Below are positions 31,582-51,580 of a stretch of 64,000 nucleotides of DNA, piece after piece. A model generated the notes under the pieces. It was not told the origin of the DNA and ran no database searches. It worked only from the letters and a program-made list of their open reading frames with translations. Every line of letters begins with the position of its first letter. The first letter of the stretch is position 1. This DNA is from Streptomyces sp. Q6 (GTDB lineage: Bacteria; Actinomycetota; Actinomycetes; Streptomycetales; Streptomycetaceae): positions 4,030,001 through 4,094,000 of the forward strand of contig NZ_CP146022.1 of assembly GCF_036967205.1 (NCBI RefSeq), in the 5' to 3' direction. Position numbers and translations under genes: made by a program.

Positions 31582-32856
31582 TCAGCCGTCGGACGGGACC
31601 GTCACCGATTCCCGTGCGTGCTTCCTGCCCGGCGGAACCACCCCGCCGCCCGGCCGTGGCCGGCGCCTCAGATGCCGCTCGACTCCGTCGACCAGCGTCG
31701 GCGCGGTGTACGAGGCCCCGTGGACGAACCGCATGGCGGGCCCGAAGTCGGCCGCTGTCACCAGGCCCGCGAGAAAGAGGCCCGGGTAGGCGGATTCGAA
31801 GCCCCGCCGCGCGCGCGGGGTGCCGTCGGCGGAGCGCGCGAGCACGCCTCTCACGCGCGGCGCGAGCACCGTCATCCGCGCGCAGCTCGCCCGGAAGCCC
31901 GTGGCCGCGATGACGTGATCGGTCTCGAAGACCTCCGCGCCCGCCGACGCACCGGCCGTGTGCACCTGAAGCCGCCCGGACGACAGCCGCGCCTCCACGA
32001 TCTGCCGCCCCATCCGGATGTCGATGTCCCCGGCCGCCACCCGGTCCCTGACCCACCAGGCGCCTGCGGGCCCCAGCGCGGTCGCGCTGATCCCGGCGCG
32101 CACGTGCTCGGGCAGTCTGCTGAACGCCCCCGGCCGCTCCGCGTAGAACCAGTTGCGCCAGCCGCAGCCGAGGCCGCTGTGCGGGGCGCGCAGGCTCTGC
32201 CACCAGGGGCGCTTCCACGGCGGGGGGACGCTGTTCCAGGCCAGTTCCGGCGAGCGCGCCACGATGCGTACGCGCGTGCCCTGTTCGGCCAGGAGCGCCG
32301 CGGTCTCCAGCGCCGCCTGGCCGCCGCCCACGACCGTGACGTCCGCTTCCCTGAAACGGGCCAGGTCGCTGTGCCGACTGCTGTGCGTCACATGCTCCTC
32401 GGTCAGATCCCGCAGGGCTTCCGGGAGGTTCATGTACGGCAGCACTCCGGTGGCCAGGGCGACCGCCCGGCCGCGCAGGACCTCTCCGTCCTCGGTCTCC
32501 AGCGTGAATCCGTCGGGGGCCGCGTCGATGCGCTCGATCATCCGCTCGTCCAGCCGCGGCACGGCCTGGCGGGCGAACCACAGGCCGTAGGACGCGAACA
32601 TGTCGACGGGGATGGGGTGGCCGTGCTCGGCGGTCACGCCACGGCCGGCGCAGTACTGGTCCAGGCGGAATCGGGAGCCGGGCGCGGACAGGTTGGAGGC
32701 CCAGGGCTCCGACTTGAGGAACATGCCGCGGGGCATGTGGTGGCGCCACGACTCCATCGGCCGGCCGAAGACCCGGGTGTCGAGTCCTCGGGCTGCGGCG
32801 TGCGCGGCGATGGACAGGCCGTAGGGACCGGCCCCCACGATCAGCAGGTCGTACAT
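31582..32856 (-). CDS. FAD/NAD(P)-dependent monooxygenase-like oxidoreductase
   Basis: 424 residues. Motifs: YDLLIVGAGPYGLSIAAHAA (FAD Rossmann at the N-terminus), VTVVGGGQAALETAALLAEQ (NADPH Rossmann, ~residue 170) and HVIAATGFR (the ATG motif of flavin monooxygenases). It resembles L-lysine/ornithine N-hydroxylase-like or Baeyer-Villiger-type enzymes; the substrate is unknown. Its ATG overlaps the TGA of the ATP-grasp gene (TGATG at 32858-32854), so the pair is translationally coupled. Located between the chaplins and the polysaccharide operon. Confidence 0.83.
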   Translation of the reverse strand: MYDLLIVGAGPYGLSIAAHAAARGLDTRVFGRPMESWRHHMPRGMFLKSEPWASNLSAPGSRFRLDQYCAGRGVTAEHGHPIPVDMFASYGLWFARQAVPRLDERMIERIDAAPDGFTLETEDGEVLRGRAVALATGVLPYMNLPEALRDLTEEHVTHSSRHSDLARFREADVTVVGGGQAALETAALLAEQGTRVRIVARSPELAWNSVPPPWKRPWWQSLRAPHSGLGCGWRNWFYAERPGAFSRLPEHVRAGISATALGPAGAWWVRDRVAAGDIDIRMGRQIVEARLSSGRLQVHTAGASAGAEVFETDHVIAATGFRASCARMTVLAPRVRGVLARSADGTPRARRGFESAYPGLFLAGLVTAADFGPAMRFVHGASYTAPTLVDGVERHLRRRPRPGGGVVPPGRKHARESVTVPSDG

Positions 32857-34145
32857 CAACAGCTCATCTTTCGTTCGGCCGGGGCGGTCGGGGCGGTCGG
32901 GGCGGCGATCACGGGTTCGGTGCTGCCAGGGGGCGGGCCCCCGGCCGCCGGGCGGGCCCGGCGGAGCAGTCGGCGGGCCGCGTGTTGCGACCACTCGGCG
33001 GCCATGCTCCGGCCGGGCGCGGGGTCGTCCTGGGCGTGCCAGGCGAATTCGCGTGCGGCCGCGCCGCGTTGGGCGGGCAGCGCGGAGGTCATCAGGGCCC
33101 GCAGCGCGGAGAGCGGCGCGTAGTTCTCGACGACGAAGGTGCGTCCCGGCAGGGCGTGCCCGGCGGGGAGCGGCTGGTGCGTCAGGTCGAGGTACTGGGC
33201 GCGGACGACGTCCAGGCCGTTGCCGTCCGCGAACAGCCGGAACTGCGCTCCCGGACGGGGGTTGAAGTCCAGCAGGCAGTACCGGCCCGAGTCGACGTCC
33301 ACCCGGAAGTCGATGTCGAAGATGCCCCGGTACTCCAGGGCCGCGACGAGCCGCTCGACCATGGTGCGCAGCTCCGGTACGTGGGCCCAGCGGCCCACCG
33401 CGGTCAACCCCGCGCCTCGGGGCCACGCCCGGTCCTTGCTGCCGGCGCCGCCGCCGTGCAGCTGCCCGTGCCGGTCGGCGTACCCGTGGCAGAACCAGTC
33501 GCCGCCGCGCCCCGCCGGCAGGTACTTCTGGAGCAGGAGTTCGCTGCCCGTGCCCAGGCCCCGCCGGTAGAGGCTCCGCGCCTCGGCCGGGGAGCTCACC
33601 AGGCTCGTACTGCGCAACCCGGAGCCCTGGGGCAGGAGCCACGGGCGGCTCCACTTGGCGACGGCGGGACGGCCCAGGCCGGCGATCGCGGCGTACGCCT
33701 CGTGCTCGTCGCGCGGCCGCACGGTGACCGGGTGGCCGATGCCGACGGAGCGGCAGAGTTCCGGCAGCCGCGCCTTGTCGGCGACGCGCTCGGCGAGGTG
33801 TCCGGGCTGCTCCGGCAGGAGGAAGGTCCCGGCGAGCGCCTCACGCGAACGGCTCACCGCGATGGCTCCGGCGTCGTCCATCGGGATCAGTACGGCCGGT
33901 CGGGTGATCCGGGCCGCCGTCCGCCGCAGCACTTCGACCACCTCGTCCGGGGACGCTCCCGGGGGCGGCGGCAGGTGCATCCGGTTGACGAAGCGCGAGC
34001 GGGCGACCGGGCTGCCCTCGGCCTCCGCGGCCACATGGACCTCCACGCCGCAGCGTCCCAGGGAGCGGACCGCCCCCAGCGTTCCGTGGTGAAAGGGGTT
34101 GGGGTCGATCCGCAGCAGCACGACCGGGACACAGGGGTCGAGCAT
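32856..34145 (-). CDS. ATP-grasp-domain ligase-like protein
   Basis: 429 residues. The first ~110 residues form a pre-ATP-grasp Rossmann-like domain (PVVLLRIDPNPFHHGTLGAV). The ATP-grasp part follows, with KARLPELCRSVGIGHPVTV, GRPAVAKWSRPWLL, the lysine-containing loop ELLLQKYLPAGRGGDWFCHG and metal-binding DIDFRVDVDSGRYCLLDFNP plus RPGAQ. Such enzymes join a carboxylate to an amine or thiol through an acyl phosphate. The Pro-rich C-terminus (~residues 395-429) looks disordered. It is the first gene of the two-gene unit with the flavoprotein. Partner substrates unknown. Confidence 0.85.
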   Translation of the reverse strand: MLDPCVPVVLLRIDPNPFHHGTLGAVRSLGRCGVEVHVAAEAEGSPVARSRFVNRMHLPPPPGASPDEVVEVLRRTAARITRPAVLIPMDDAGAIAVSRSREALAGTFLLPEQPGHLAERVADKARLPELCRSVGIGHPVTVRPRDEHEAYAAIAGLGRPAVAKWSRPWLLPQGSGLRSTSLVSSPAEARSLYRRGLGTGSELLLQKYLPAGRGGDWFCHGYADRHGQLHGGGAGSKDRAWPRGAGLTAVGRWAHVPELRTMVERLVAALEYRGIFDIDFRVDVDSGRYCLLDFNPRPGAQFRLFADGNGLDVVRAQYLDLTHQPLPAGHALPGRTFVVENYAPLSALRALMTSALPAQRGAAAREFAWHAQDDPAPGRSMAAEWSQHAARRLLRRARPAAGGPPPGSTEPVIAAPTAPTAPAERKMSC

Positions 34146-34277: not shown

Positions 34278-35591
34278 ATGGTCGGAGAACGCCGATGGGC
34301 GAAGCGCAGAAAACTCCCACTGATCGCGGCGGGAGCCCTGATCTCCCTGGTGGTGGCGTCAGGATCCGTGTCCATCGAGCGCGCGGACGCGAGCCCACGG
34401 AGCGAGCCGACCCCGCCCGCCCCGACCCGCCCCATCCCGTGGTGGCCGTCCGACACGGGCGATCCGACTCCCACGGAACCGGCGAGCACCCAGCCCTCCA
34501 CGCTGCCGAGCACGTCACCGAGCGCGTCACCGAGCCCGGATCCGACCCCGTCCGCGACGGCGTCGCCCGATCCGGACACGACACCCGCGGCGGACAGGTT
34601 CCCCGCGTTCGGGGCCTACCTGGACTTCGGCCCGCGCGGCGTGACCCGGATGGCGAAGCTGTCGCAGTGGCTCGGGGGAGCCGATCTGCGCGTCGGGCAC
34701 ACCTATCTTCCCGGTGACCGGTGGAGCAACATCGAGGGCTCCCCGTCGTTCCTCGACAGTTGGGCCAAGTGGCGCCGCGAGCGCGACGACCGGCTCTTCG
34801 TCCTCAACGTGCCCATGCTGGAGCGCAACGAGGAGGGCGTCCCGGACGCCCAGGTGCGCGGCCTGCTCCAGCAGGGCGCGGCGGGCGACTTCGACGAGCA
34901 CTTCCGGACGCTGGCCGAGCGCCTGGTCGATCTGGACGTGCCGGACACCGTCGTGGTGCTCGGCTGGGAGATGAACGGCATCACCTACACACACCGCTGT
35001 GGACCCGATCCGGCGGCGTGGAAGAAGTACTGGACCCGGATCGTCACGGTGATGCGGTCCGTGCCGGGGCAGAAGTTCCGCTTCGACTTCACGCCCAGCC
35101 GCGGCCGGGACGCCGTGCCGTGGACCGAGTGCTACCCGGGCGACGACGTCGTGGACATCGTCGGCATGGACTCGTACGACCAGCCGGAGGGCAAGTCCTT
35201 CGACGAACAGGTCTCCGAGCCCTACGGACTTCAGGCCCAGGTCGACTTCGCGGCGAAGCACGACAAGCCGATCTCCTACCCGGAGTGGGGGCTGTTCCGT
35301 AACGGGGACAACGCCGAGTACATGCGGCGGATGCTCGGGTGGATGGACGAGCACAAGCCGCTCTACAACACGCTCACGGACTACTGCCCGCACGGCGTGT
35401 GGCAGTGCGACGAGAACCCGAAGGCCGCGGAGATCTACCGGGCCGCGCTGACCGGACGCGACAAGCCGACCGAGCCCACGCCTCCGGTCCAGCCTCCGCA
35501 GTGTTCCCCGGTCGACCTGGGCGACTGGGTCGAGCACTGGCTCGGCGGCAAGCTCTGCCTGCGGTTCGACTGGTGGGAGCGGAACTCCTGA
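34278..35591 (+). CDS. Secreted GH26-like glycoside hydrolase
   Basis: 437 residues: basic N-terminus and signal peptide/TM (KLPLIAAGALISLVVASGSV), a Pro/Thr/Ser linker (~45-110), then a beta/alpha-barrel resembling GH26 (mannanase-like, clan GH-A). The putative acid/base is the Glu in VVVLGWEMNGI and the nucleophile is the Glu in ISYPEWGLFR. Other features are VDIVGMDSYDQ and a Cys-containing C-terminal tail. It converges on the polysaccharide operon, as is common for hydrolases that trim or release the polymer made by the neighbouring genes. Substrate inferred only by family. Confidence 0.82.
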   Translation: MVGERRWAKRRKLPLIAAGALISLVVASGSVSIERADASPRSEPTPPAPTRPIPWWPSDTGDPTPTEPASTQPSTLPSTSPSASPSPDPTPSATASPDPDTTPAADRFPAFGAYLDFGPRGVTRMAKLSQWLGGADLRVGHTYLPGDRWSNIEGSPSFLDSWAKWRRERDDRLFVLNVPMLERNEEGVPDAQVRGLLQQGAAGDFDEHFRTLAERLVDLDVPDTVVVLGWEMNGITYTHRCGPDPAAWKKYWTRIVTVMRSVPGQKFRFDFTPSRGRDAVPWTECYPGDDVVDIVGMDSYDQPEGKSFDEQVSEPYGLQAQVDFAAKHDKPISYPEWGLFRNGDNAEYMRRMLGWMDEHKPLYNTLTDYCPHGVWQCDENPKAAEIYRAALTGRDKPTEPTPPVQPPQCSPVDLGDWVEHWLGGKLCLRFDWWERNS

Positions 35592-35628: not shown

Positions 35629-36753
35629 CTAGGCCGGGCCGTCACCGCGCTCCTTCCAGGCGCGTCGGGCCCGCTTCGCCACGGACCGGGCACGGACGTC
35701 CGCGAGGAGCGCGCCCAGCTGGGGCGCGGAGCTGCGGCGCGCGAGCAGGAACCGCTGGTTCACCAGGCGCTCGGGGCGCCAGTGCATCTTGTACGGCTCC
35801 GTACCGCGCAACAGGCTCAGGACCTGGGCCTGGGAGCCGTCCTGGAGGTGCTGCGCGCACGAGCGGAGCAGCATCGTGGCGACGTCGATCTTGCGTTCCC
35901 GCAGCTGCGGGTGGGCGCCGTACAGGTATCCGCCCGCCAGCCGGGGGGACACGAAGGTCAGATCGGCGGCGACCACGGTGCCGTCCAGCGTGAACTCCGT
36001 GACGACGGCGTCCCCCGTCTCCGCCATGAGGGTGACCGAGCGGGTCAGGTGCTCGGCGAAGCGCGGCTTGACGTGCTCGGTCGTCACCTTCCGCTCCTGC
36101 CACTGCAATCGGTGCAGGTCGAGGAGGCGCCGTACCGAGGAACCGACCTCGTCCGCGGGCACGACCCGGCGCTCGATGCCCGTCGCGTCCAGCTTCCGCA
36201 TCTTGGCCCGCGCCCGCTGCGCCCGCGGGCGCGGCAGCCGTTGCACCAGATCGTCCATCGGCAGCGCCGGCAGTTCGAGGCACGCCGAGTCGTCGAGACG
36301 GCGGCGCGGGCCCGGCCACCGGTCGTGCAGGGTCTCCACCACGCTGCCCGGCCGCACCTCGCGGAAGTCGATCACGGCTCCGCGGGCCAGCTTCCACAGC
36401 CCGGCGCCCAGCGCGTCGACGGCCCGGTCGGCCGTTCCGGCGGAGCGCTGGTCGACGAGGACGTCGCTGAAGTCGGAGATCTCCGCGCCCAGCGGCCTCA
36501 GGGTCGGGAAGGGCCGGGTCTGCCGCATCAGCGGGGCGGCCGCGACGAGTCGGCCCTCCTGGCGTACGAGGACGACGCGCAGCCGGCGCGCGCCGCCGTA
36601 GGAGAGCCACCAGGAGTGGAGCCAGGCGTGGCTCTGGAACGGTGTCGCGGTCGCCGACGACCGGTGCAGGCGGTTCCACTCCTCGCGCAGCGCAGCGAAC
36701 TCGGCCGGGTCCGTGCACACCGTGACGACAGGCGCGGACACGACGCTCGGCAT
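35629..36753 (-). CDS. CelD/BcsL-type GNAT acyltransferase
   Basis: 374 residues with the double-GNAT layout of the BioF2/CelD family: an N-terminal half (TDPAEFAALREEWNRLHRSS, then FQSHAWLHSWWLSYG) and a C-terminal acetyltransferase half (LTFVSPRLAGGYLYGAHPQL, then SLLRGTEPYKMHWRP). These proteins are typical of exopolysaccharide clusters, where they probably acylate sugars. Last gene of the operon; its ATG overlaps the TGA of the Wzz-like gene (TGATG at 36755-36751). Confidence 0.88.
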   Translation of the reverse strand: MPSVVSAPVVTVCTDPAEFAALREEWNRLHRSSATATPFQSHAWLHSWWLSYGGARRLRVVLVRQEGRLVAAAPLMRQTRPFPTLRPLGAEISDFSDVLVDQRSAGTADRAVDALGAGLWKLARGAVIDFREVRPGSVVETLHDRWPGPRRRLDDSACLELPALPMDDLVQRLPRPRAQRARAKMRKLDATGIERRVVPADEVGSSVRRLLDLHRLQWQERKVTTEHVKPRFAEHLTRSVTLMAETGDAVVTEFTLDGTVVAADLTFVSPRLAGGYLYGAHPQLRERKIDVATMLLRSCAQHLQDGSQAQVLSLLRGTEPYKMHWRPERLVNQRFLLARRSSAPQLGALLADVRARSVAKRARRAWKERGDGPA

Positions 36754-37414
36754 CAGGCGCCGCCCCGCAGCGCGGCCGCGTGCGCGGGGCCGGAACCGTC
36801 GCCGTGGCCGGTTCCGACTCGCGGCGCGGGCGGATCAGCAGGGCGAGGCCACCGAGCAGCCCGCCCGCGCACGCGCCGACGAGGGTGGTCAGCGCGGCCG
36901 AGGCCGTCGACGGCTCGGTGGGCTTGACGGCCCGCGTGAACCGCAGGAGCTCCACATGGGTGTCGTCCTTGGTGTGGCTGGCGTTCGTGGTGAGCGCGCG
37001 GGCGACGGCGTTGGCCATCTCCATGGCCTGGGCCGGTTCGGCCGACGACGCCGAGATCGCGACCATGGGCGCGTCGGGCGACGTCTCCGCGCGGACGTTC
37101 GCCTGGAGGGTCTCGACCGGCACACCGGCCGCCACCTGGGCGTCGCTCAGTACGGCGACCTGCGTCGCCACGCGGCTGTACGCCTGGGCGAAGCCGAGCG
37201 CCGACATCGGGTCGGACTTCTCCGTCGGTACGGCGATCACGTAGCTCGTGGCCGTGTACTGGGGCGTGCTGACCGCGCCGTACAGGCCGCCGCCGAGCGC
37301 GCCGAGCAGGATGCCCGCGGGCAGCGGCCACCACCGCGGCAGCCTCCTCGGGCGGGTGCCGGTCCGGGCGAACGGGGCGCGCGGGGTTCCGCTGTCCTGG
37401 GCTGCTTCGGTCAT
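36753..37414 (-). CDS. Wzz/YveK-like chain-length regulator, one frame break near the end
   Basis: About 220 residues. An N-terminal TM (PLPAGILLGALGGGLYGAVS) precedes the Wzz-type motif STPQYTATSYVIAVP, a periplasmic helical region and a second TM (TLVGACAGGLLGGLALLI). There is no C-terminal tyrosine kinase, so it is a stand-alone chain-length/co-polymerase protein. The frame read from the start misses the expected stop and runs through the whole next gene. Restoring one base near 36784-36792 gives the end AHAAALRGGA and a TGA that overlaps the next ATG. Start ATG 37414 overlaps the stop of the upstream gene. Confidence 0.8.
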
Positions 37415-38577
37415 CACGTACTCATTCCTGACGTCGGTGCGCCCATGGCCGTCGCGTACACGTCCTCGTGCAGGGCGGCGCTGCGGGCGATGCTGTAGTG
37501 GAGGGCAGCCTCCGACGGCGTTCTGGGGCCGCCTGACTCCTCGCGGGAGCTGTGGGCTGCACGGATTTCACGACGGATTTCACGGACGAACGAGGCGGCG
37601 TCGCACGGGACACGGACGGCGCGGGCGCGTGTCCCCGCGGGCAGGTCGTCGACCGCGGGGCAGGTCACGTAGAGCACCGGCAGTCCGCTGGCCTGCGCCT
37701 CGACCACGGCCAGGCCGAACGCCTCGTCGACGGACGGCGCGGCGAGCACGTCCATGGCGGACATCAGGGCGGGCAGGTCGACCGTGGCGCCCGCAGGGCC
37801 CGGCGCCGTGTGCGGGCGCTCCCCGGCGAAGACGACACGGTCGAGCACGCCGGACTCCCGGGCCGCCCGGCGCAGGGCCTCCTCCTCGGGGCCCGTGCCG
37901 ACCAGGAGGAGGCGGACGTCGTCGGGGAGGTCGCGCAGCGCGGCGACCAGTACGTCGAACCGCTTGCCCGCCACCAGGCGCCCCACGCCGCCGACGACGA
38001 AGGCTCCGGGCGGCAGGCCGAGGGCGAGCCGGGTCGCGGCGCGGGCCGCGGGGTCGAAGGCGAAGCGCGGGACGTCGACGCCGTTCGGGACGACGGCCAC
38101 ACGGTGCGGGGCCACGCCCCACAGGCGCAGCCGGTCCGCGACCGCCGGGGACACCGCGATGGTCGTCCGGCCGAGCTTCTCGCCCGCCAGGTAGAGGGCA
38201 CGCACGCCGCGGGTCAGCGGCCGCCCCTCGATCTGGGCGTCGCCCAGCGAGTGCTCCGTGGCGACGACCGCCCGCACGCCGGCCATCCGTGCGGCGATCC
38301 GGCCGTACAGGCAGGCGCGGTAGAGGTGCGTGTGGACGACGTCGTACCGCCCGCCGCGGATGAGCCGCGCCAGGCGGGGCACGGCGCGTGCGTCCCGGTT
38401 GCCGGCCATGCCCAGGTGGGCGACGCGCACCCCGTCGCCGCGCAGCCCCTCGGCGACCTGCCCCGGGTTCGTCAGCGTCACGACGTCGTGCGGTCCCGGC
38501 AGGTGGCGTACGAGCAGGCGCAGTTGCTGTTCCGCGCCGCCCGCTCCCAGGCCGGTGATGACGTGCAGGACCTTCAC
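37414..38577 (-). CDS. GT4-family glycosyltransferase
   Basis: 387 residues of GT-B fold. The N-terminal donor loop is HVITGLGAGGAEQQLRLLVR. The mid domain contains VVPNGVDVPRF, then VGRLVAGKRFDVLVAALRDL. The C-terminal EX7E region is FGLAVVEAQASGLPVLYV (slightly modified, with the Glu in VDEAFGLAVVEA). It transfers an activated sugar to a growing lipid-linked glycan in the cytoplasm. Start GTG 38577 overlaps the deacetylase stop by three bases (GTGA). The C-terminal 50 residues are hydrophilic. Confidence 0.92.
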   Translation of the reverse strand: MKVLHVITGLGAGGAEQQLRLLVRHLPGPHDVVTLTNPGQVAEGLRGDGVRVAHLGMAGNRDARAVPRLARLIRGGRYDVVHTHLYRACLYGRIAARMAGVRAVVATEHSLGDAQIEGRPLTRGVRALYLAGEKLGRTTIAVSPAVADRLRLWGVAPHRVAVVPNGVDVPRFAFDPAARAATRLALGLPPGAFVVGGVGRLVAGKRFDVLVAALRDLPDDVRLLLVGTGPEEEALRRAARESGVLDRVVFAGERPHTAPGPAGATVDLPALMSAMDVLAAPSVDEAFGLAVVEAQASGLPVLYVTCPAVDDLPAGTRARAVRVPCDAASFVREIRREIRAAHSSREESGGPRTPSEAALHYSIARSAALHEDVYATAMGAPTSGMST

Positions 38578-39356
38578 CGGGCGTCCTCCCCGATCCGCCA
38601 GGCGCGTCTTCGGACCCGGTGGACGCGGCGCTTGAGTTCGAGCCGCCAGAAGGTGTCCCGCTGGCCGACGAACACCCGCGGCATCGCGTACACGCTGGTC
38701 AGGGGGCCCGGGGAGATGGCGCAGCCGTAGCGGTAGCCGGCGCGGCGGACGGCCTGCGCGGTCGCCGCGTCGACGTGCCCGTACGGGTAGCAGAAGCCGT
38801 GCACCGTCCGGCCGGTGATCTCTTCGAGCTGTGCCTTGCTCCGCCGGATCTCGGCGTGCAGCGCCTCCTCGTCGAGGCGGGTGAGGTCGACGTGCATCAG
38901 GCCGTGGGAGCCGATCTCCATACCGGCGGCCGCGGCCTGCCTGATGCCCTGCGCGGTCAGCAGGGGCTTGCGCGGGCCCTCTTCGTCCCACGCGTTCTCC
39001 CCGCCGAGGCGGCCGGAGAGGACGAAGACCGTGGCGGAGCATTCGTAGTGCCTGAGCAGGGGCAGCGCGTTCTCGACGAAGTCCCCGTACCCGTCGTCGA
39101 AGGTGAGTCCGACGAGACCGCGGTCGGCGCCCTGGCTCCTGGCGTCGAGGAGTTCGGCCACGCTGACGCCGCGCAGTCCGCGCGAGCGCAGCCAGCGCAG
39201 CTGCTCCCGCAGGCGGTCGGGGGTGACGGTGACGTTGTACGGGTCGTCGGTGCAGTCGTCCACCGAGTGGTACATCGCCACCCACGGGGGGCGCCCGGGC
39301 AGCAGTTCCCTCGTTCTGGGGCCGGAGGGTTCCTGGAGTGCTGTGTCAGCGGGCAT
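38574..39356 (-). CDS. Polysaccharide deacetylase (NodB/CE4)
   Basis: 260 residues. CE4 motif 1 is VGLTFDDGYGDF with the catalytic and metal-binding Asp pair. Motif 2 is GSHGLMHVDLT with both zinc His. Motif 3 is CYPYGHVD. No signal peptide is visible at the N-terminus, which suggests a cytoplasmic or membrane-face enzyme, or an undetected start. The likely role is N-deacetylation of a sugar in the operon's polymer. It overlaps the flippase gene by 11 bp upstream and the GT4 gene downstream. Confidence 0.9.
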   Translation of the reverse strand: MPADTALQEPSGPRTRELLPGRPPWVAMYHSVDDCTDDPYNVTVTPDRLREQLRWLRSRGLRGVSVAELLDARSQGADRGLVGLTFDDGYGDFVENALPLLRHYECSATVFVLSGRLGGENAWDEEGPRKPLLTAQGIRQAAAAGMEIGSHGLMHVDLTRLDEEALHAEIRRSKAQLEEITGRTVHGFCYPYGHVDAATAQAVRRAGYRYGCAISPGPLTSVYAMPRVFVGQRDTFWRLELKRRVHRVRRRAWRIGEDAR

Positions 39357-41025
39357 TGCGGTGCTTTCTGGTCACGATGCGGACGGCGGGCAGGAATGCC
39401 TGGACCTTCAGGGCCCACAGGAGGAGGCCGAAGACGGCGCCGATGGCCAGGCAGCCGACGGCGAGGGAGCCCAGCGGCTGCGCGACCCGGGCCGCGCACG
39501 CCATCCCCGCGGCGGTGGCGGCCACCGCCGCGAGCAGCGTCTTGCCGAGTTCGAGCAGCACCACGGGGATGCGGACAGGGACGCTGCGCTTGTCCATCGC
39601 CGTCAGGAGCAGCACCGCGGTGAACGTGATGCCCAGGGCGTTGGCCGCGGCGATGCCGCCGACCCCCCAGGCGTGGACCGCCCAGGTGCCCGCCCCGGCC
39701 GTGAGCGTCATGCCCGCGGCCATCGAGGCCACCGGGTACCAGGTGGGCCGCCCGGCGGAGAAGTAGGAGCGGACCAGCGCGCCGACGAGACAGTGCCCGA
39801 GCAGCCCCAGCGAGTAGACCCGCATGATGTCCGCGGTGGCGGCGGTGTCCTCGTACGTGAACGCCCCGCGCTGGAAGAGAAGGTGGACGATCTGCGGGGC
39901 GCAGGCGAACACCACGGCCGCGCCCGACAGGACGATGCAGGCCGCGAGCGCGACATCACGCTCGACCCGGTCCCGGGCCCGCTCGGTGTCGCCGCGCGCC
40001 AGCGCCTTCGCCACCACGGGGAAGGTCACCGTGCACAGCATCAGCGACAGCACCATCGGCAACTGCGCGACTTTCTGCGCGTAGTTGAGGTGCGAGATGG
40101 CGCCCGACGGCAGCGAGGAGGCGAGGAAGCGCTCGATGAAGACCTGCGACTGCCGGCACAGCGCGAAGAGCAGCACGGTCGCGATCAGCGCCATGTTCAT
40201 CGACTGCTTCTTCGACGCCTTCGCCTCACCTCCGTCCACCCGGGCCGCAGGCGCGGTGCTCCTGAGCCTGCGGCGCAGGGACGGCGCCTGCACCAGCACC
40301 ATCAGACAGCCGCCCACCGCCACTCCCGCGGCGGCGGCCCGCACACCCCAGCGGTCGGCGAGCAGCAACAGGGTGACGATGATGCCCGTGTTGTACGCGA
40401 CATAGATGGCGGCCGGGGCGAGATAGCTGCTGTGGGCGCGCAGCGCGGCGCTGCAGTACCCGGTGAGCCCGAAGGTCAGGACGCAGGTGGCGGTCAACCG
40501 CGTGCAGTCGACGGCGAGTTGGGGGTCGGGGAGCCCCGGGGCGAGCAGCGCGACCAGGTGCGGCGCGCTGATCATCAGGAGCACCGCGCAGGCCACGAAC
40601 GCCAGGGCGAGGCGCGGCAGCGAGGTCGCCACCAGGGCCCGTACCGGGTCCTGGTGGCCCTGGCCCGACGCCGCCGAGGCGCCGCGCGCGGCGATGGCCG
40701 CGCTGAAGGCGGGCACCAGCATGAACGCGAGCCCGTCCTCGATGAGCAGCGTCGAGGCCACCTCGGGCACGGTCCAGGCCACCAGGAAGGCGTCCGTCTC
40801 GCTGCCCGCCCCGAAGAGATGGGCCAGCGCCTGGTCCCGGCCGAGGCCGAGGAGCGACCCGGCGGCGGACAGCGAGGCGGTCAGCAGCGCGGCCCTGACC
40901 AGGAAGGTGTTCGACGTACGGTGCTGCTCCTGAGCCGTGTCGACGGCGGCCGGAGCGGGTTGCTGCGGGGGAACGGCCGGGGCCAGCAGGGTCTCGTCCC
41001 CGTCGGCGGGAAGGGTCGGTTTCAT
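39346..41025 (-). CDS. MurJ/MviN-type lipid-linked glycan flippase
   Basis: 559 residues with about 14 TM segments of the MOP superfamily. Family traits: ASLSAAGSLLGLGRDQALAH in TM1 and its loop, FGAGSETDAFLVAWTVPEVA, EDGLAFMLVPAFS, and VHLLFQRGAFTYEDTAATAD in the middle (the RGAF motif of MurJ). In an exopolysaccharide operon it probably flips the lipid-linked repeat unit (Wzx role) rather than lipid II, although sequence alone cannot separate these. ATG 41025 overlaps the TGA of the ligase/polymerase gene (ATGA). Confidence 0.9.
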   Translation of the reverse strand: MKPTLPADGDETLLAPAVPPQQPAPAAVDTAQEQHRTSNTFLVRAALLTASLSAAGSLLGLGRDQALAHLFGAGSETDAFLVAWTVPEVASTLLIEDGLAFMLVPAFSAAIAARGASAASGQGHQDPVRALVATSLPRLALAFVACAVLLMISAPHLVALLAPGLPDPQLAVDCTRLTATCVLTFGLTGYCSAALRAHSSYLAPAAIYVAYNTGIIVTLLLLADRWGVRAAAAGVAVGGCLMVLVQAPSLRRRLRSTAPAARVDGGEAKASKKQSMNMALIATVLLFALCRQSQVFIERFLASSLPSGAISHLNYAQKVAQLPMVLSLMLCTVTFPVVAKALARGDTERARDRVERDVALAACIVLSGAAVVFACAPQIVHLLFQRGAFTYEDTAATADIMRVYSLGLLGHCLVGALVRSYFSAGRPTWYPVASMAAGMTLTAGAGTWAVHAWGVGGIAAANALGITFTAVLLLTAMDKRSVPVRIPVVLLELGKTLLAAVAATAAGMACAARVAQPLGSLAVGCLAIGAVFGLLLWALKVQAFLPAVRIVTRKHRNAR

Positions 41026-42377
41026 CGTTCGGTCGACGCCTCGCAGACCGCCGCCGGCGCCAGGGCCCACCAGACGACCAGGCCGAACACGACGGCGGTG
41101 AGCACCGTCGAGGGGCCGCCGATGTCCGCGTAGACGAAGTCGATCATCTGCCAGGTGAGCAGTCCGCAGGCGATGAGCGCGCAGTCGAGGCCGCGGGCCT
41201 CGCGGTGCGCCGTGGCGAGCCTGCGCACGCCCAGCACGAGCAGCGCCGCCCAGGCCCCCACGATGGCGCACAGGCCGAGCAGCCCCTGCTCACTGAGGAC
41301 CAGCAGATACATGTTGTGCGGCGACAGCAGCGGCTGCCTGCGGAACTCCGCGCCCGCACCGGCCACGTCGCTGCCCGCGGACAGCGCGATCGAGGCGTGG
41401 CTGTCGCGGTAGGCGGGGAAGTTCTTGAGCCCCACCCCGGTGGCGGGGTGCTCCTCCCACATGTCCACGGCCGCCGCCCACATCGTGTACCGGTCCGTCA
41501 CGGACTGGTCCGGCGCGGCCGTGACCTGCGTGATGCTGCTCAGCCGCTCCTGGAGCATCGACGTCCCCACGCCGAACCCACCGACGAGGACGACGGCCGC
41601 GGCGGCGCCGACCGCCAGCAGGCGTGCGGCCCGGCGCAGTCCGGCGAGCACGATCTGCGCCACGCAGACCACGGCCGTCGCGATCCACGCGCCACGGCTG
41701 AAGGAGAGCGCCAGGGGCACCAGGAGACCGAGCGCGCAGAGCAGCGCGACGAGCCGCCCGCGCGCGGTGCCGCCCCCGAGGGCCAGCGCCACCGCGCAGA
41801 CCAGCCCGTACGCGACCACGGTGGACATGCCCATCACGTCCGTGGCCCCGAACGTGCCGACGGCCCGGATGTCCTCCCCGGCGTACGAGGCGCCCGTACC
41901 GGTCAGGTACTGGTAGACGCCGATGGCCCCCTGCCACAGGCCCAGCGCGACCAGCGCCCAGCCGACGAGCCGGAAGTCGCGCCGGTCGCGGACGAGCAGC
42001 AGCACGGCCGCCGGGACGAGCACCAGGATCTGGTAGTAACGCACCAGCCCCTCAAGGGCGTTGGGCAGCGAGTCCGCGCCGAGCGCGGCGACCGCGACGG
42101 CGACGACGGGCAGCCCCAGCACGACGTAGGCGGTGCGCGTCAGCGTGCGCTGTCCGAGCCGCACGGCACGGACGGCGCAGAAGAGCACGACCAGACCGGA
42201 GACGGCGTCGGCGAGGGTCCCGCCGCTGCCCTCCTGGTCACTGCCCGCGCCCAGGGGCAGCGCCAGCATGGCGACCAGCAGCAGTACGGGGATCACGGGT
42301 CCGGCCCGGCGCACGGCACCGCGGACCGAAGCCGCGGGTCCGGCGGGCGGGGCGGCGAGGACAGGGAGAACCGTCAC
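41022..42377 (-). CDS. O-antigen ligase/polymerase-like membrane protein (Wzy_C)
   Basis: 451 residues, ten or more TM segments. The Wzy_C region includes PLALSFSRGAWIATAVVCVA, then a large extracellular loop (DRYTMWAAAVDMWEEHPATG with VGLKNFPAYRD) and SPHNMYLLVLSEQGLLGL, which holds the typical HN motif. The protein would polymerise or ligate polyprenyl-linked repeat units on the outer face. Start GTG 42377, only 4 bp after the sugar-transferase stop. Confidence 0.9.
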   Translation of the reverse strand: MTVLPVLAAPPAGPAASVRGAVRRAGPVIPVLLLVAMLALPLGAGSDQEGSGGTLADAVSGLVVLFCAVRAVRLGQRTLTRTAYVVLGLPVVAVAVAALGADSLPNALEGLVRYYQILVLVPAAVLLLVRDRRDFRLVGWALVALGLWQGAIGVYQYLTGTGASYAGEDIRAVGTFGATDVMGMSTVVAYGLVCAVALALGGGTARGRLVALLCALGLLVPLALSFSRGAWIATAVVCVAQIVLAGLRRAARLLAVGAAAAVVLVGGFGVGTSMLQERLSSITQVTAAPDQSVTDRYTMWAAAVDMWEEHPATGVGLKNFPAYRDSHASIALSAGSDVAGAGAEFRRQPLLSPHNMYLLVLSEQGLLGLCAIVGAWAALLVLGVRRLATAHREARGLDCALIACGLLTWQMIDFVYADIGGPSTVLTAVVFGLVVWWALAPAAVCEASTER

Positions 42378-42381
42378 GTCG

Positions 42382-43854
42382 TCAACTTCCCGTCGGACGG
42401 AAGAACTCGGTCGCCGTGCGCATCAGAATGCTGATGTCCCGCCACAGCGACCACCCGTCGATGTACGCGTTGTCGAACCGGCAGCGGTCCTCGATGGAGG
42501 TGTCACCGCGCAGCCCGTTGATCTGCGCGAGGCCGGTGATGCCGGTCGGCATACGGTGACGCTCGCTGTAGCCGGGGTGCAGCTCGCTGAACTTCACGAC
42601 GAAGTACGGGCGTTCGGGGCGCGGGCCGACCAGGCTCATGTCGCCGCGGAAGACGTTCCACAGCTGGAGCAGCTCGTCGAGCGAGGTGCGGCGCAGGAAG
42701 CTGCAGAACCACGGCATCTGGTGCTCGTTGGCCACGCTCCAGCGCGTCGCGGACTCCATCGGGTCGGCGGGGCGGTGCGTGCGGAACTTGAGCAGCGTGA
42801 AGGGCCGGCCGTCCTTCCCGATCCGCTCCTGCCGGAAGACGACACCGGGCCCCTCGCTGAGCCGGAGCCACACGGCGCAGGTCAGGAGCACCGGGCTGAA
42901 CAGCACCAGCAGCAGCGAGGAGATCACCAGGTCCAGGGCGCGCTTGCCCGGGTGCGGCGGGAAGGGCGGCCCCACGACCGGCCGGCAGCGGAACCCCGCC
43001 AGGTGCTGGAGCCGCTCGCGGCCCTCGGGGACGTACGCCGACGGGTCCGGGTCCAACTCCCATACCTCGCAGCGCAGTTCGCTGAGGCTGCGCAGGCAGG
43101 GAAGGTACTCCGGAGCGTTCGACCTGCCCAGGACGATGGCCCGCCGCACGTCGTTCTGGATCACCGCGCGCCGCATGTCCCCGACGCTCGTCAGCACCGG
43201 CAGGGCCGCGCCGCTCTTCCGCTGCTCCTGCTCCGCCGCACCGTCGCTGACGATGCCCACCAGGCGGATCCCGTTGCGCGGACACCGCTGGAGGGCGGCG
43301 GCGACCCGCGCGGCCGCGGGCTCCGGGCCCACCAGGAGCGTCGTGCAGGGCCGCCGGACCATGGCCACCCGCCGCCGCCAGTGGACGAGCGCGCGGCCCA
43401 TCAGGGTGAGGACGCAGTGGACGGCGCACCCCGACAGCACCGACGTCACGGGAATCGGCCGCATCACGGGCAGGCTCGCCGAGACGGCCGTCAGCACACA
43501 CCACGCGAGGGCGATACGGCCCACGACGGCAGGGCAGTCGTCGAGCATGTACCGCTTGCCGAACAGGCCGTACAGGCCCGCGTTGCGGTACAGGCCGAGG
43601 ACGAGGACGAGGAATCCCGCCACCAGCAGCGGGTGGCGCTGGAGCGGAGAGAGGGCGACGGTGCCGAGCAGCGCGGCCGTGCTGTCCATCGCGAGCAGGA
43701 AGGCGCGGGAGGAGTGGTCCTGCTCCGGGCCGCCGACCAGCGTGGTCCTGTTGCCGTCGGCGGTCCGCTGCGCGATGACCGTGGCGAAGGCGCCTGCCTC
43801 CTCCACGGCACGCTGCTGTTCGGTGGACGAGGCGACGGTTCGTTCCGGGGTCAT
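42382..43854 (-). CDS. Polyprenyl-phosphate priming sugar transferase (WcaJ/CpsE type)
   Basis: 490 residues. The N-terminal half has four TM segments and a CoA-binding-like Rossmann region (TTLLVGPEPAAARVAAALQR). The C-terminal bacterial sugar-transferase domain has a membrane hairpin (KRALDLVISSLLLVLFSPVL), FRQERIGKDGRPFTLLKFRT and NVFRGDMSLVGPRPERP. It transfers a hexose-1-phosphate to undecaprenyl phosphate and so starts the repeat unit. Start ATG 43854 overlaps the upstream GT4 stop (ATGA). Confidence 0.94.
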   Translation of the reverse strand: MTPERTVASSTEQQRAVEEAGAFATVIAQRTADGNRTTLVGGPEQDHSSRAFLLAMDSTAALLGTVALSPLQRHPLLVAGFLVLVLGLYRNAGLYGLFGKRYMLDDCPAVVGRIALAWCVLTAVSASLPVMRPIPVTSVLSGCAVHCVLTLMGRALVHWRRRVAMVRRPCTTLLVGPEPAAARVAAALQRCPRNGIRLVGIVSDGAAEQEQRKSGAALPVLTSVGDMRRAVIQNDVRRAIVLGRSNAPEYLPCLRSLSELRCEVWELDPDPSAYVPEGRERLQHLAGFRCRPVVGPPFPPHPGKRALDLVISSLLLVLFSPVLLTCAVWLRLSEGPGVVFRQERIGKDGRPFTLLKFRTHRPADPMESATRWSVANEHQMPWFCSFLRRTSLDELLQLWNVFRGDMSLVGPRPERPYFVVKFSELHPGYSERHRMPTGITGLAQINGLRGDTSIEDRCRFDNAYIDGWSLWRDISILMRTATEFFRPTGS

Positions 43855-45002
43855 GTCGTGACCGGCTCTCTGCACTTGATGGTCTCCAGACCCAGAAGTT
43901 CGCCATACACATCCGCGACCGCTGCTGCCGTGCGCCGGACGTCGTGGTGTGCGTGCACATGGCGGTGGGCGTCACGGCCCAGCGTGCGAAGGTCTTCGGC
44001 GTCGCTCAGCAGACCGACCAGCGCCCGGGTCAGGGCAGCGGGGTCTTCCGGCGGGGCCAGGCACTTGGGTGCCAGAGGGGGCGGCAGGCTCTCGCGGGCC
44101 CCGTTCACGTCCGTGACGAGAACCGGGCTCCCGCAGGCCATGGCCTCCAGGGGGGCGAGCGCCATGCCCTCCCACCGCGAGGGCAGCACGACCAGGTCGG
44201 CCGCCCGGTACCAGGGAGCCGGATCGTCGACGCTCCCCGCGAAGGTGACGGACGGGGGAGCGGCGGCCCGCAGCTCCGCCAGGTCCGGCCCGTCCCCCAC
44301 CAGGACCAGGTGCGCCCCGGGCCGTTCGCGGAGCACGCCCCGCCACGCCTCGACGAGCACGTCCTGGCCCTTCTGACGGCACAGCCGGCCCACGCACACG
44401 ACGAGCGGGCCCGTCGCGGGAAGGCCGAATCGCCCCGCCGCGGACGGCCCCGCGGGACTGAACCGCTCCAGATCCACGCCGTTGGGCACGAGTCGCCACT
44501 CCGCGGCGATCCCGTGGGCGGTGCCCGTGTCCCGCTCGGCCCGGCTGACGCAGATCAGCCGGGAGGCCCAGCGCGCCCCCCGCCGTTCCCAGGTGAGGGC
44601 CATCCGCGCCCCGAGCCCTTCGACGGCCTCGAAGGACCAGGCGTGCGGCTGGAAGACCGTGGGGATGCGCCCCCGGACGACGAGCCGGGTGACCAGTCCC
44701 GCCTTGGCGCTGTGGGCGTGGATGACATCGGGGCGGACCCGGTCCACCACCTCGGCGAGCCGGCGCGCCTCGCCCAGGACGCTGCGGCCCGGAGACCGCG
44801 ATGCCTCCCAGGCCAGGACCTCGCATCCGAGGTCGGTCAGGTGGCCGGGGAGGCTGCCGGAGGGCGGACATGCCACCCGTACGCTCATCCCGGCGGCACG
44901 CTGCATGCGCACGAGGTCGGCCACTACGCGCGCCACTCCGCCGTCGACCGGCTGCGTCACGTGGAGCACGCGTAGCGGCAAGGGTGCGGACGTCACATGC
45001 AT
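43851..45002 (-). CDS. GT4-family glycosyltransferase (second)
   Basis: 383 residues, GT-B fold. N-terminal VLHVTQPVDGGVARVVADLV (donor/acceptor loop), RLVPNGVDLERFSP, VCVGRLCRQKGQDVLVEAWR and the EX7E motif in SRWEGMALAPLEAMACGSP. Start ATG 45002 (MHVTSAP) is chosen because GGAAGAGG lies just upstream; ATG 45014 is an alternative. It is 32 bp after the DUF3344-like gene and probably in the same transcript. Confidence 0.92.
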   Translation of the reverse strand: MHVTSAPLPLRVLHVTQPVDGGVARVVADLVRMQRAAGMSVRVACPPSGSLPGHLTDLGCEVLAWEASRSPGRSVLGEARRLAEVVDRVRPDVIHAHSAKAGLVTRLVVRGRIPTVFQPHAWSFEAVEGLGARMALTWERRGARWASRLICVSRAERDTGTAHGIAAEWRLVPNGVDLERFSPAGPSAAGRFGLPATGPLVVCVGRLCRQKGQDVLVEAWRGVLRERPGAHLVLVGDGPDLAELRAAAPPSVTFAGSVDDPAPWYRAADLVVLPSRWEGMALAPLEAMACGSPVLVTDVNGARESLPPPLAPKCLAPPEDPAALTRALVGLLSDAEDLRTLGRDAHRHVHAHHDVRRTAAAVADVYGELLGLETIKCREPVTT

Positions 45003-45034
45003 CGCCTCTTCCATGGGTGCACTGAAGAAAGCGG

Positions 45035-46132
45035 CTAGGACCGGACGTCGACCGCTCCGAAGAGCGCTCCGATCCACGCCGTGTCCTCGGCCGAGTCCAG
45101 CCGGAAGTCCAGCGACCTGCCGCCCCGGGCCACGGCCTTGTCCAGCGAGAACACGTCGGAGTCGTAGCCGAGGGTGTTCGCGTGGGCCGGGACCCGCTCC
45201 GGCTGCCGCTCGCCCGGCTGGCTGATGGTCGAGTTGAGGACGTCGTCCGCGGGGTTGGCCCGGTCGGACAGCGCCACGGGGCCGCCCCGCCCGGTCGAGA
45301 CGGTCAGCGAGTCACCGCCCCTGCCGCGATCGCCGTTGTAGGCGACGAGCCCGGCAGAGCCGCTCGCCCCTTCGGCGAGCGGCATCGTCATGCGGAAGGT
45401 CCTGCTGGGCTGCTGCCGCGTGAAGGTGTCGAACCCGTCCCGGACGAACAGCCGCCGCAGCGGCTCGGACGGATTCTCGTACGCGGCCACGAGCGTCCAG
45501 CCGCCCCAGGCGCCGGCGGCGGTACGCCCCATGGCGACGTTCAGCTGCGCCACGGTGTACAGGCCGGCGCCGCTGGAGCGCACCAGCTCGGTGACGTCCG
45601 CGGAGGCCTGGTAGGCGTCCGCGCCGTTGGCGACCCGGTGCCCGACCACGGTGTCGGCGAGCACCTGCTTGTACGCGCCGCCGGGCTCGGCGACCAGCAC
45701 CCGCCCGTTGTCCCGCGGCGGCTTCTGCTCGCCGACCCGGAGATTTCCACCCCAGTACAAACGTGCGTATGTCACGCGAGATCCCGCGGGAATGCGGACC
45801 TCGGCACTCGAAGAGTTGTACGTGTTCGGGTCGTCGTCGATGTCCGTATAGAACATGTCGAAATCGCCATTGCTTGCGATAGCGCCCGAACGGGCCTCGG
45901 CGCACCCCACTCTTTTGAGTGGGTCGGCACCGCGGCACGTGATGGCGGCATTCGCCGCACGGACGATTCCGCCATGGAGCTCGGCGTCGTACCGCGTGGT
46001 GAACGGGATGCTGGGCTTCTCGGTACTCGGCTCCGTCGCCGTCGCCGCTGCCTGGCAGGGCAGGGACGCCGCCGCCAGCGACAGCAGGCCCACCGTCATG
46101 CGGCGCAGGAAACAGCCTTTGAAATTACGCAC
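45035..46132 (-). CDS. Secreted DUF3344-like protein
   Basis: 365 residues. Signal peptide (RRMTVGLLSLAAASLPCQAA). The mature part is beta-rich: RYDAELHGGIVRAANAAITC, then FYTDIDDDPNTYNSSSAEV, VTYARLYWGGNLR and WTLVAAYENPSEPLRRLFV. This is the pattern of secreted DUF3344-type adhesin-like proteins (from memory, medium certainty). Start GTG 46132 follows AAAGGGA. It is the apparent first gene of the polysaccharide operon, transcribed from the 264-bp gap it shares with a divergent chaplin. Function unknown; a wall- or polymer-associated role is inferred from position. Confidence 0.7.
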   Translation of the reverse strand: MRNFKGCFLRRMTVGLLSLAAASLPCQAAATATEPSTEKPSIPFTTRYDAELHGGIVRAANAAITCRGADPLKRVGCAEARSGAIASNGDFDMFYTDIDDDPNTYNSSSAEVRIPAGSRVTYARLYWGGNLRVGEQKPPRDNGRVLVAEPGGAYKQVLADTVVGHRVANGADAYQASADVTELVRSSGAGLYTVAQLNVAMGRTAAGAWGGWTLVAAYENPSEPLRRLFVRDGFDTFTRQQPSRTFRMTMPLAEGASGSAGLVAYNGDRGRGGDSLTVSTGRGGPVALSDRANPADDVLNSTISQPGERQPERVPAHANTLGYDSDVFSLDKAVARGGRSLDFRLDSAEDTAWIGALFGAVDVRS

Positions 46133-46462
46133 GGCCGGCGTCCCTTTCAGGAATGAGCAGACGCTCTGCAGCACCAGGCAAGTAGATAGGAAAGTCACAC
46201 TTATCTGTCGATCCCCCGCAGCACCTACCGCCCGAACGGGGAGCGGCCAACAGTAGCGGCCAGAAAGTCAGTTTCACTTGATACACGATGTGTGTTGGAG
46301 TTGTGAAATTCCCGGCTCCCGTGCGTCAACTCTCCGCAGCGCACTGCAATGACCTAAAGGCCATTCACTCGTTCGGAGCCGCAACCCCGTGCGGTGCCGC
46401 TCCGTTGCACCACCCGCCGGGCGCCTGTCCCGGCCGTACAGAACGACCCAAGGAGCATGTTC

Positions 46463-46702
46463 ATGTCGCGTACCGCGAAGGCAGTCGTCTTCTCCGCCAT
46501 GGCCGCCGCCGCCATGGCCGGCACCGCCGGCATCGCCGCCGCCGACAGCGGCGCGCAGGGTGCCGCCACCGACTCCCCCGGAGTCGTCTCGGGCAACGTC
46601 GTCCAGGTGCCCGTGCACGTGCCGGTCAACGCCTGCGGCAACACCGTGAACGTCATCGGCCTGCTGAACCCGGCCTTCGGCAACAGCTGCGTCAACAGCT
46701 GA
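46463..46702 (+). CDS. Short chaplin
   Basis: 79 residues: a signal peptide (RTAKAVVFSAMAAAAMAGTA, cleavage near AAA) and one chaplin domain (DSPGVVSGNVVQVPVHVPVN, then ACGNTVNVIGLLNPAFGNSC). Both Cys are present. Start ATG 46463 is seven bases after AAGGAG; ATG 46457 would be too close to that site. Divergent from the polysaccharide operon and its upstream gene. Confidence 0.95.
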   Translation: MSRTAKAVVFSAMAAAAMAGTAGIAAADSGAQGAATDSPGVVSGNVVQVPVHVPVNACGNTVNVIGLLNPAFGNSCVNS

Positions 46703-49706: not shown

Positions 49707-50366
49707 ATGAGCACCGACGTCCAGAGGGCCGCCGCGCCTGTTCGGCCCGCGGCCGACCGTCAGCCCGTACGGAGCGAGGAAGCGGCGCCCCCTGCCGAGC
49801 GGCACCTCGGGTTCGCGCTGGTCCTCGTCCTCACCGGAGTCGCCGGGCTGCTCGCCTCCTGGGTCATCACCCTCGACAAGTTCAAGCTCCTCGAAGACCC
49901 GAACTTCACCCCCGGGTGCAGCCTGAACCCCGTGGTGTCCTGCGGGAACATCATGAAGAGCGCACAGGCGGCCGCCTTCGGGTTCCCCAACCCGATGCTC
50001 GGGCTCATCGCCTACGGAGTGGTGGTCGCCGCCGGGGCGGGCCTCCTGGCCCGCGCGCGGTTCCCCCGCTGGTACTGGCTGACCTTCCAGGCGGGGTGCC
50101 TCTTCGGGGTCGGCTTCGTGTCGTGGTTGCAGTTCCAGTCGCTCTACCGGATCCACTCGCTGTGCCTGTGGTGCTGCCTCGCCTGGGTGGCCACGATCGT
50201 CATGTTCTGGAGCCTGGCCGCATTCAACGTCCGCAACGGATTTCTGCCCGCGGGACGCGCGGTGCGCACCTTCTTCACCGAGTTCTCCTGGGTTCCGCCC
50301 ACGCTGCACATCGGCGCCGTAGGAATGCTGATCCTGACCCGCTGGTGGGATTTCTGGACGAGCTGA
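49707..50366 (+). CDS. Vitamin K epoxide reductase (VKOR) family protein
   Basis: 219 residues with four to five TM segments. The shuttle Cys region is CSLNPVVSCGNIM, and the active-site pair is in HSLCLWCCLAWV (CxxC form CLWC). VKOR homologues in actinobacteria reoxidise DsbA-like proteins using quinones and so drive disulfide bonds in exported proteins. In this window the chaplins and rodlins are Cys-containing exported proteins, so they are natural clients; no DsbA-like gene is visible. Start ATG 49707 follows AGGAGGG. Confidence 0.92.
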   Translation: MSTDVQRAAAPVRPAADRQPVRSEEAAPPAERHLGFALVLVLTGVAGLLASWVITLDKFKLLEDPNFTPGCSLNPVVSCGNIMKSAQAAAFGFPNPMLGLIAYGVVVAAGAGLLARARFPRWYWLTFQAGCLFGVGFVSWLQFQSLYRIHSLCLWCCLAWVATIVMFWSLAAFNVRNGFLPAGRAVRTFFTEFSWVPPTLHIGAVGMLILTRWWDFWTS

Positions 50367-51024: not shown

Positions 51025-51124
51025 AAGCGCCGGGTGGGCCGGCCCATGAGCCCGTCCTGGCCCACCCGACTCACCGGCGTTCCCCGGCGGTGGGCGGGCT
51101 CCAGACCCGCAGGAGGAGATGCAC

Positions 51125-51574: not shown

Positions 51575-51580
51575 TGCCCG

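Follow-up and report, generated by a model that had tools for sequence, protein, structure and literature searches.

The question raised by the present locus is whether a polysaccharide operon found among the amyloid coat genes of a Streptomyces is part of that coat or an independent system kept beside it. The window, i.e. the whole stretch of 64,000 nucleotides that was analyzed, covers positions 4030001-4094000 of the 8.95-Mb genome of Streptomyces sp. Q6, and the operon runs on its minus strand from position 46132 down to 35629. A previous sequence-only reading had named the genes of this operon, without stating the strand, and had proposed that a deacetylated glycan made beside chaplins and rodlins forms with them a single combined protein-glycan coat system. 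All the named genes were found at 35629-46132. The interpretation considered rather probable here is that the operon directs the synthesis of a cell-surface heteroglycan by a pathway of the Wzx/Wzy type, and that it is an independent module kept beside chaplin genes in Streptomyces. The enzyme set, its order and its conservation are established from the sequence, the glycan is probably de-N-acetylated and acylated, and it may plausibly, though without proof, act at the surface of aerial hyphae or spores. The linkage to chaplins is most telling for the pair formed by a ChpG-like chaplin and a tyrosinase.

Read from position 46132, the minus strand encodes successively a DUF3344-family protein (45035..46132, alternative start at 46099; PF11824, 37.2 bits), a first GT4 glycosyltransferase, GT4a (43851..45014; PF13692, 124.6 bits and PF13439, 102.5 bits), a priming polyprenyl-phosphate sugar-1-phosphate transferase (42382..43854; PF02397 or Bac_transf, 192.9 bits; TIGR03025, 321.6 over a cut-off of 295.55), a Wzy-like polymerase with an O-antigen ligase domain, Wzy_C (41022..42377; PF04932, 71.9 bits over a cut-off of 31.7; 10 hydrophobic segments), a MurJ-family flippase of the MOP superfamily (39346..41025; PF03023, 204.1 bits; 12 hydrophobic segments), a CE4 polysaccharide deacetylase (38574..39356; PF01522 or Polysacc_deac_1, 105.5 bits), a second GT4 glycosyltransferase (37414..38577; PF13439, 86.8 bits; TIGR03088, 129.5, below its cut-off of 409.05), a short Wzz-like chain-length protein (36753..37414; PF02706, 21.4 for a cut-off of 25.5, and TIGR01006, 25.1 for a cut-off of 296, both below) and a GNAT acyltransferase (35629..36753; PF13480 or Acetyltransf_6, 81.9 bits). 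The latter is called FemX-like on the basis of what we take to be the character of family PF13480; no NCBIfam match and no PDB relative were found for this protein. The initial gene list is thus upheld by Pfam matches over cut-off for most proteins, with the amendments that the 'Wzx-like' flippase belongs to the MurJ family and that the 'Wzz-like' match is weak. Seven gene junctions were measured, that of the Wzz-like and GNAT genes being excluded. Five are overlaps (-4, -4, -11, -4 and -1 bases), as had been claimed for all the genes, and two are gaps, of 20 bases between the DUF3344 and GT4a genes and of 4 bases between the priming transferase and Wzy genes; six of the seven remain within 11 bases. 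To call the operon 'complete' was generous, as neither a sugar-nucleotide gene nor a kinase was found among the Pfam matches of its proteins.

The proposed pathway can be briefly summarized as follows. The priming transferase would load a sugar phosphate onto the lipid carrier and the two GT4 enzymes would elongate it, giving a trisaccharide or a longer unit. The CE4 enzyme would then strip an N-acetyl group and the GNAT enzyme would acylate the unit, both in the cytosol and before export by the MurJ-family flippase. The exported units would be polymerized by Wzy to a length set by the Wzz-like protein. The TFDDG, SHG and FCYPYG columns of the deacetylase are invariant in 14 sequences, and we take them to be the catalytic and metal-binding columns of CE4 enzymes. 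Since neither the deacetylase nor the GNAT protein displays a hydrophobic segment, both modifications would be expected to take place in the cytosol, with the lipid-linked unit as substrate. A GH26-like enzyme encoded by the convergent neighbor would probably trim or release the glycan, adjoining ATP-grasp and FAD genes would probably add a modification, and a LytR-CpsA-Psr (LCP) protein may anchor the product where present. The pathway is of a known kind; its flippase is of the MurJ type, its modifiers are probably cytosolic and it likely has a hydrolase of its own.

This interpretation as a glycan module is based on the domains found over cut-off, the invariant motif columns, the lack of hydrophobic segments in the deacetylase and GNAT proteins, the recurrent gene order, the frequent presence of a chaplin nearby and the gene places in an outgroup genome. 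The Wzx/Wzy clusters of Actinoplanes missouriensis, one of which (wps-1) includes a GH26 gene, provide a precedent (PMC13390465). A Wzy ortholog was found in 41 of 61 Streptomyces genomes, the present one included. In a second draw, which shares the present genome, G013 and G056 with the first, it occurred in 56 of 65 genomes of the genus, whereas all 15 genomes representing other genera of that order lacked it; a class-wide sample yielded 9 positives among 118 genomes, eight of them from the same genus. Of 576 confirmed stretches with a Wzy relative, the 80 best comprised 78 labeled as Streptomyces, the other two being labeled 'Actinobacteria bacterium OK074' and 'Microtetraspora glauca'. In a set of 120 loci, which counts at least seven genomes twice, the eight core genes were all matched in 98, and their order and strand were identical in 97 of these (the exception being L057), a recurrence which indicates that the arrangement is not due to chance. 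A close deacetylase ortholog is retained in 4 of 20 Wzy-negative relatives: apparent contig breaks are seen in G001 and G046, too little room is left for Wzy and MurJ in G010, and G008 displays a lone deacetylase match between chaplins. In locus L124, Wzy is the last operon gene matched and matches to LCP and rodlins come next, possibly as a result of partial loss.

The outgroup, a genome of a different family (G190), displays the priming transferase, Wzy, MurJ, deacetylase, GT4, Wzz and GT4 genes, after which come GH26, ATP-grasp and FAD genes that are convergent and arranged as in the window. In this genome GNAT, chaplin and tyrosinase were unmatched across 40 kb at the operon, the weak chaplin matches being on a separate contig. 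The GH26, ATP-grasp and FAD genes are therefore counted within the glycan module, and adjacency to chaplins is regarded as a Streptomyces feature, a distinction drawn from one outgroup genome. In the window, the GH26-like hydrolase (34278..35591, plus strand) possesses an N-terminal hydrophobic segment and matches PF02156 with 26.2 bits over a cut-off of 20.2, on part of the domain only; it also weakly matches GH26 mannanases of known structure. The Glu residues of its GWEMNG and PEWG motifs are invariant in 27 sequences and are presumably the catalytic pair. In 87 of the 98 full loci, the gene lies no more than 1.5 kb from the operon and is convergent with it. The ATP-grasp-like ligase (32856..34145, minus strand) is a weak assignment (CPSase_L_D2, E 0.089; PRK12767-like, E 0.0011) which occupies the same place in the outgroup, as does the FAD/NAD(P) oxidoreductase (31582..32856, minus strand; PF13738, 73.6 bits), whose start overlaps the end of the ATP-grasp gene.

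Two proteins of the operon call for specific comments. The DUF3344 gene is accessory, about half of the operons carrying one; an ortholog with at least 53% identity was found in only 21 of 61 genomes, the present one included, and its inclusion in the operon core was therefore rejected. The protein is probably secreted. Its predicted structure (pLDDT 71, pTM 0.75) is mainly beta with an N-terminal helix, and no PDB relative was found by sequence at E 1. The Wzz-like protein counts 220 residues up to the point where its relatives end. In the window, its usual stop is absent and the open reading frame (ORF) continues out of frame for 370 codons, entering the following gene, unlike the 37 of 37 listed relatives, in which the ORF ends at most 70 codons from the match. 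Either a frame change or a sequencing error would account for this tail.

The adjacency to chaplins was then quantified. A short chaplin (46457..46702, plus strand; PF03777, 101 bits) is divergent from the operon in the window, and a chaplin lies at most 3 kb upstream of GT4a in 75 of 98 full loci, with at least one divergent chaplin in all 75. The surroundings of Wzy were compared over 38 stretches of about 20 kb, which often stop short of the outer genes and seldom reach the rodlins. A chaplin was present in 32 of them, the GH26-like gene in 32, tyrosinase in 25, ATP-grasp in 19, DUF3344 in 18, FAD in 13 and a rodlin in 6. As a genome yields about 8.9 chaplin-domain matches, a chaplin would be expected in about 2% of random 20-kb stretches. 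Because the loci share ancestry and are not independent, this excess reflects conserved order and not, by itself, function. The six chaplin-free stretches are located at four separate tree positions; for one of them (G031), a chaplin lies about 10 kb outside the stretch, among the matches listed.

The operon has been relocated in seven genomes, in which the rodlins are far off or on a different contig. All seven relocated copies nevertheless retain the order GNAT, ChpG-like chaplin, tyrosinase, caddie gene and GH26, and the presence of GH26 next to each of them is counted in support of the glycan module. As these copies form one clade (support 1.0, beside rodlin-linked loci), a single event is indicated. 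In the window, the corresponding chaplin (52564..52761, minus strand) combines the chaplin domain with a Tyr/Gly tail (SDGGDSGYGG) and lies beside a caddie-protein gene and tyrosinase (51119..52450, plus strand; PF00264, 140.8 bits), the tyrosinase gene being convergent with it. This chaplin would be ChpG-like; S. coelicolor ChpG is reported to bear an 11-residue tail (PMC3079736). Such a tail is found in 65 of the 66 chaplin ORFs located at most 800 bases from a tyrosinase, versus 1 of the 144 others (210 distinct chaplin ORFs). The tailed chaplins are for the most part orthologs of a single gene at a single location, and this contrast consequently demonstrates a stable pair and not a reaction. 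Co-transcription of chaplin and operon in the relocated copies was also considered and is less likely: inspection by eye shows a BldN-like motif separating GNAT from chaplin in six of the seven and a one-base variant of it in the seventh.

The rodlins behave differently. The window holds two divergent rodlin-like genes (28920-29330, minus strand; 29563-29973, plus strand) without Pfam match at E 0.001, for which the name 'rodlin' is taken from the sequence-only reading and presumed by us to apply. Homologs of the gene at 29563-29973 exist in 43 of 60 genomes. According to coordinates read by hand, 16 of the 40 Wzy-positive relatives have a rodlin no farther than about 25 kb away, 7 have one elsewhere and 13 have none, the other 4 being unjudgeable because of contig ends. 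Rodlins are present in 27 of 40 Wzy-positive versus 16 of 20 Wzy-negative relatives, i.e. without association (Fisher p 0.38), and the outcome is unchanged when G001, G010 and G046 are recounted as operon-positive (29 of 43 versus 14 of 17). In G003, a chaplin, tyrosinase, further chaplins and rodlins are kept in a 20-kb stretch with no match to the operon, GH26, ATP-grasp or FAD, and a GT4 match is the sole operon trace in the 20-kb stretch of G034.

Regulatory signals were also considered for the operon and coat genes. The divergent promoter region (46133..46456) holds a BldN-like dyad on the chaplin strand, found in 41 of 71 upstream regions of the DUF3344 type; in relatives, a separate conserved block is present on the operon strand, and this block is altered in the window. 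The consensus behind the motif is the one that we assume for BldN. In its strict form the motif occurs in 35 of 274 chaplin-domain upstream regions, 0 of 28 rodlin upstream regions and 8 of 2000 random pieces, and is therefore specific yet insensitive, so that its absence from the operon constitutes weak to moderate evidence. Chaplin and rodlin genes are reported to be directed by BldN (PMC4125116). A BldN promoter shared by operon and chaplins finds no support with this insensitive motif, as no strict motif was found and the loose motif occurs in 4 of 115 operon upstream regions versus 62 of 2000 random pieces. Control by WhiA through an upstream GACAC was likewise set aside: this sequence is common in 24 aligned relatives but is replaced by AACAC in the window. 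GACAC is moreover a very frequent sequence, with 15,116 occurrences reported in S. venezuelae (PMC3781837). Control by bldA was also rejected, as detailed below.

A number of observations weigh against the interpretation as a surface-glycan module. Developmental control receives no pointer from the strict BldN-like motif, present in 0 of 115 operon upstream regions (with the insensitive motif used), nor from bldA, no TTA codon being conserved in the operon. The flippase is closer to MurJ than to Wzx (MatE, 24.8 bits, just under the cut-off of 24.9; TIGR01695, 221.9, under the cut-off of 235.55), which makes a peptidoglycan-related role possible. The position and size of the Wzz-like protein fit a Wzz role, yet its PF02706 match is below cut-off. 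GNAT is without match in the outgroup and, for example, in L052, L056, L129 and L137. In Actinoplanes missouriensis, deletion of wps-3, the closest cluster in gene content, is reported to leave sporangia without phenotype (PMC13390465).

The explanations that compete with it overlap, and their odds need not add to one. The adjacency to coat genes could be merely inherited gene order without any function, which is doubtful though far from negligible: the relocated copies are one clade and one event and the operon occurs away from chaplins in the outgroup, yet a divergent chaplin is present in 75 of 75 loci having a chaplin at most 3 kb upstream, and all 7 relocated copies kept the ChpG-like chaplin, tyrosinase and GH26 at their side. 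The same conserved adjacency (32 of 38 stretches; 75 of 98 loci) would be expected if, as initially proposed, operon and coat genes were one unit whose deacetylated glycan fixes chaplins and rodlins during aerial growth. The ChpG-like chaplin, tyrosinase and GH26 have moreover remained linked to the operon through a relocation that left the rodlins behind, and a joint action of CslA glycan and chaplins has been reported (PMC5972031). This idea is possible, yet most evidence favors another reading, and we consider it unlikely. Rodlin presence is unassociated with the operon, G003 has chaplins and rodlins without an operon gene in its 20-kb stretch, chaplins are missing from 6 of 38 stretches and from the 40 kb around the outgroup operon, the strict but insensitive BldN-like motif is absent upstream of the operon, and much of the linkage is explicable by shared ancestry of the chromosomal region. 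What stands of the initial claim is a Wzx/Wzy-type operon with a deacetylase, embedded among chaplin and rodlin-like genes in a neighborhood whose conservation exceeds random expectation; the single coat system is not supported, although a looser functional link is conceivable. A further elaboration by analogy with the insect cuticle, where protein and polysaccharide are covalently coupled, would have the tyrosinase oxidize the tail tyrosines of the ChpG-like chaplin to quinones that couple to amines of the deacetylated glycan, thereby welding amyloid to polysaccharide. This is highly improbable. An extracellular tyrosinase is itself doubtful, the relatives being mostly of the melD type, whose typical 17-base overlap occurs in 69 of 90 tyrosinase loci and is absent in the window, and S. 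coelicolor MelD2 being reported mainly in the membrane fraction and undetected outside the cell, in a strain without DOPA oxidation (PMC2758597). A loose twin-arginine pattern is nevertheless found near the start in 80 of 90 caddie ORFs, so that export is still conceivable.

Two other explanations concern the fate of the polymer. It could belong to the cell wall, as a glycopolymer attached to peptidoglycan by the LCP protein, whose gene lies between the two kinds of rodlin-region neighbors named above as rodlin-like (27413..28492, minus strand; PF03816, 151.9 bits). The MurJ-type flippase and the occurrence of LCP near rodlins in L185, L191, L192, L086 and L127 lend some weight to this proposal. 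We regard it as quite unlikely, as LCP adjoins rodlins in just 3 of 10 further rodlin loci (L185, L191 and L192) and in 0 of the 38 20-kb stretches, which seldom reach the rodlins. A partly deacetylated and acylated adhesive for adhesion and cohesion of hyphae or spores, comparable to the Caulobacter holdfast or to XrtA/PEP-CTERM loci, is very unlikely. The same types of modifiers, the HfsH deacetylase and the HfsK GNAT protein (modeled on FemX), act there on one adhesive glycan primed by HfsE, and loss of hfsH or hfsK is reported to lower cohesion and adhesion in C. crescentus (PMC5362036, PMC8449245). The NCBIfam matches do include PgaB, HfsE, HfsH and several XrtA-system families, but with scores far under the cut-offs (HfsE, 126.2 versus 750 bits; HfsH, 45.2 versus 400 bits), and those of the operon GT4, Wzy and deacetylase to TIGR03088, TIGR03097 and TIGR03006 are all below cut-off, exosortase and PEP-CTERM proteins not having been looked for. 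The GNAT protein lacks an NCBIfam match and its likeness to HfsK is one of protein type. Furthermore, hfsK lies outside the hfs locus in Caulobacter (PMC5362036, PMC8449245), and its deletion in Hirschia baltica is reported to be without effect on the holdfast.

Compared with known systems, the glycan module differs from CslA/GlxA and MatAB of Streptomyces, which are synthase-type systems. They resemble it as sources of surface glycans, MatB having a deacetylase domain and CslA being described as a partner of chaplins in attachment (PMC5972031). A synthase-type poly-beta-1,6-GlcNAc system (Pga/Ica/MatAB) was rejected for the operon, as no GT2 was found among its Pfam matches at E 0.001 and PgaB scored 80.1 versus 321.9 bits. 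The nearest experimental work found concerns the wps clusters of A. missouriensis, likewise an actinomycete Wzx/Wzy-type system (PMC13390465). The wps-1 and wps-3 clusters are reported to be transcribed during sporangium formation; wps-1 holds a GH26 gene and is needed for normal sporangia, and wps-3 carries GT4, deacetylase, BioF2-like acetyltransferase and FAD monooxygenase genes, like the operon region (PMC13390465). This comparison is by gene content only, and wps-1 differs by its sulfotransferases, GT2 and GT26 (PMC13390465). No published account of the operon was found by text search of the literature among the matches listed, the BldN regulon paper being outside its scope. The region SCO2699-SCO2719 is presumably the S. 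coelicolor counterpart of the window region. No mention of SCO2706 to SCO2711 was found in the literature searched; SCO2704 and SCO2713 each appear in one paper, the latter being named in PMC9130861. An argR mutant is reported to overexpress SCO2704, chaplins and rodlins being upregulated there too (PMC5839063). The operon is unmentioned in the passages considered of PMC7541840, PMC6767563, PMC4850268, PMC6428758, PMC10294661 and PMC8549240.

The coat region displays some additional features. A VKOR-family gene (49707..50366, plus strand; PF07884, 138.5 bits) lies among the chaplins and might form chaplin disulphides, and a DUF5949 protein (48795-49298; 255.2 bits) is encoded beside chaplins. 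The chaplin ORF at 30561-31337 yields three domain matches in our own scan and two stretches by Pfam. Two chaplin domains of the genome (G000:C1:876819-876986 and G000:C2:46357-46524) have identical scores and frame lengths, which suggests a duplication between contigs.

Streptomyces is a model for aerial growth and amyloid coats, and the operon is widely conserved there. It permits single-locus deletions with clear read-outs, namely glycan, rodlets, wetting and adhesion. The GH26-like enzyme is the likely cognate hydrolase and could release the polymer for analysis. The neighbors most worth attention are the ChpG-like chaplin, the tyrosinase and GH26, and not the rodlins.

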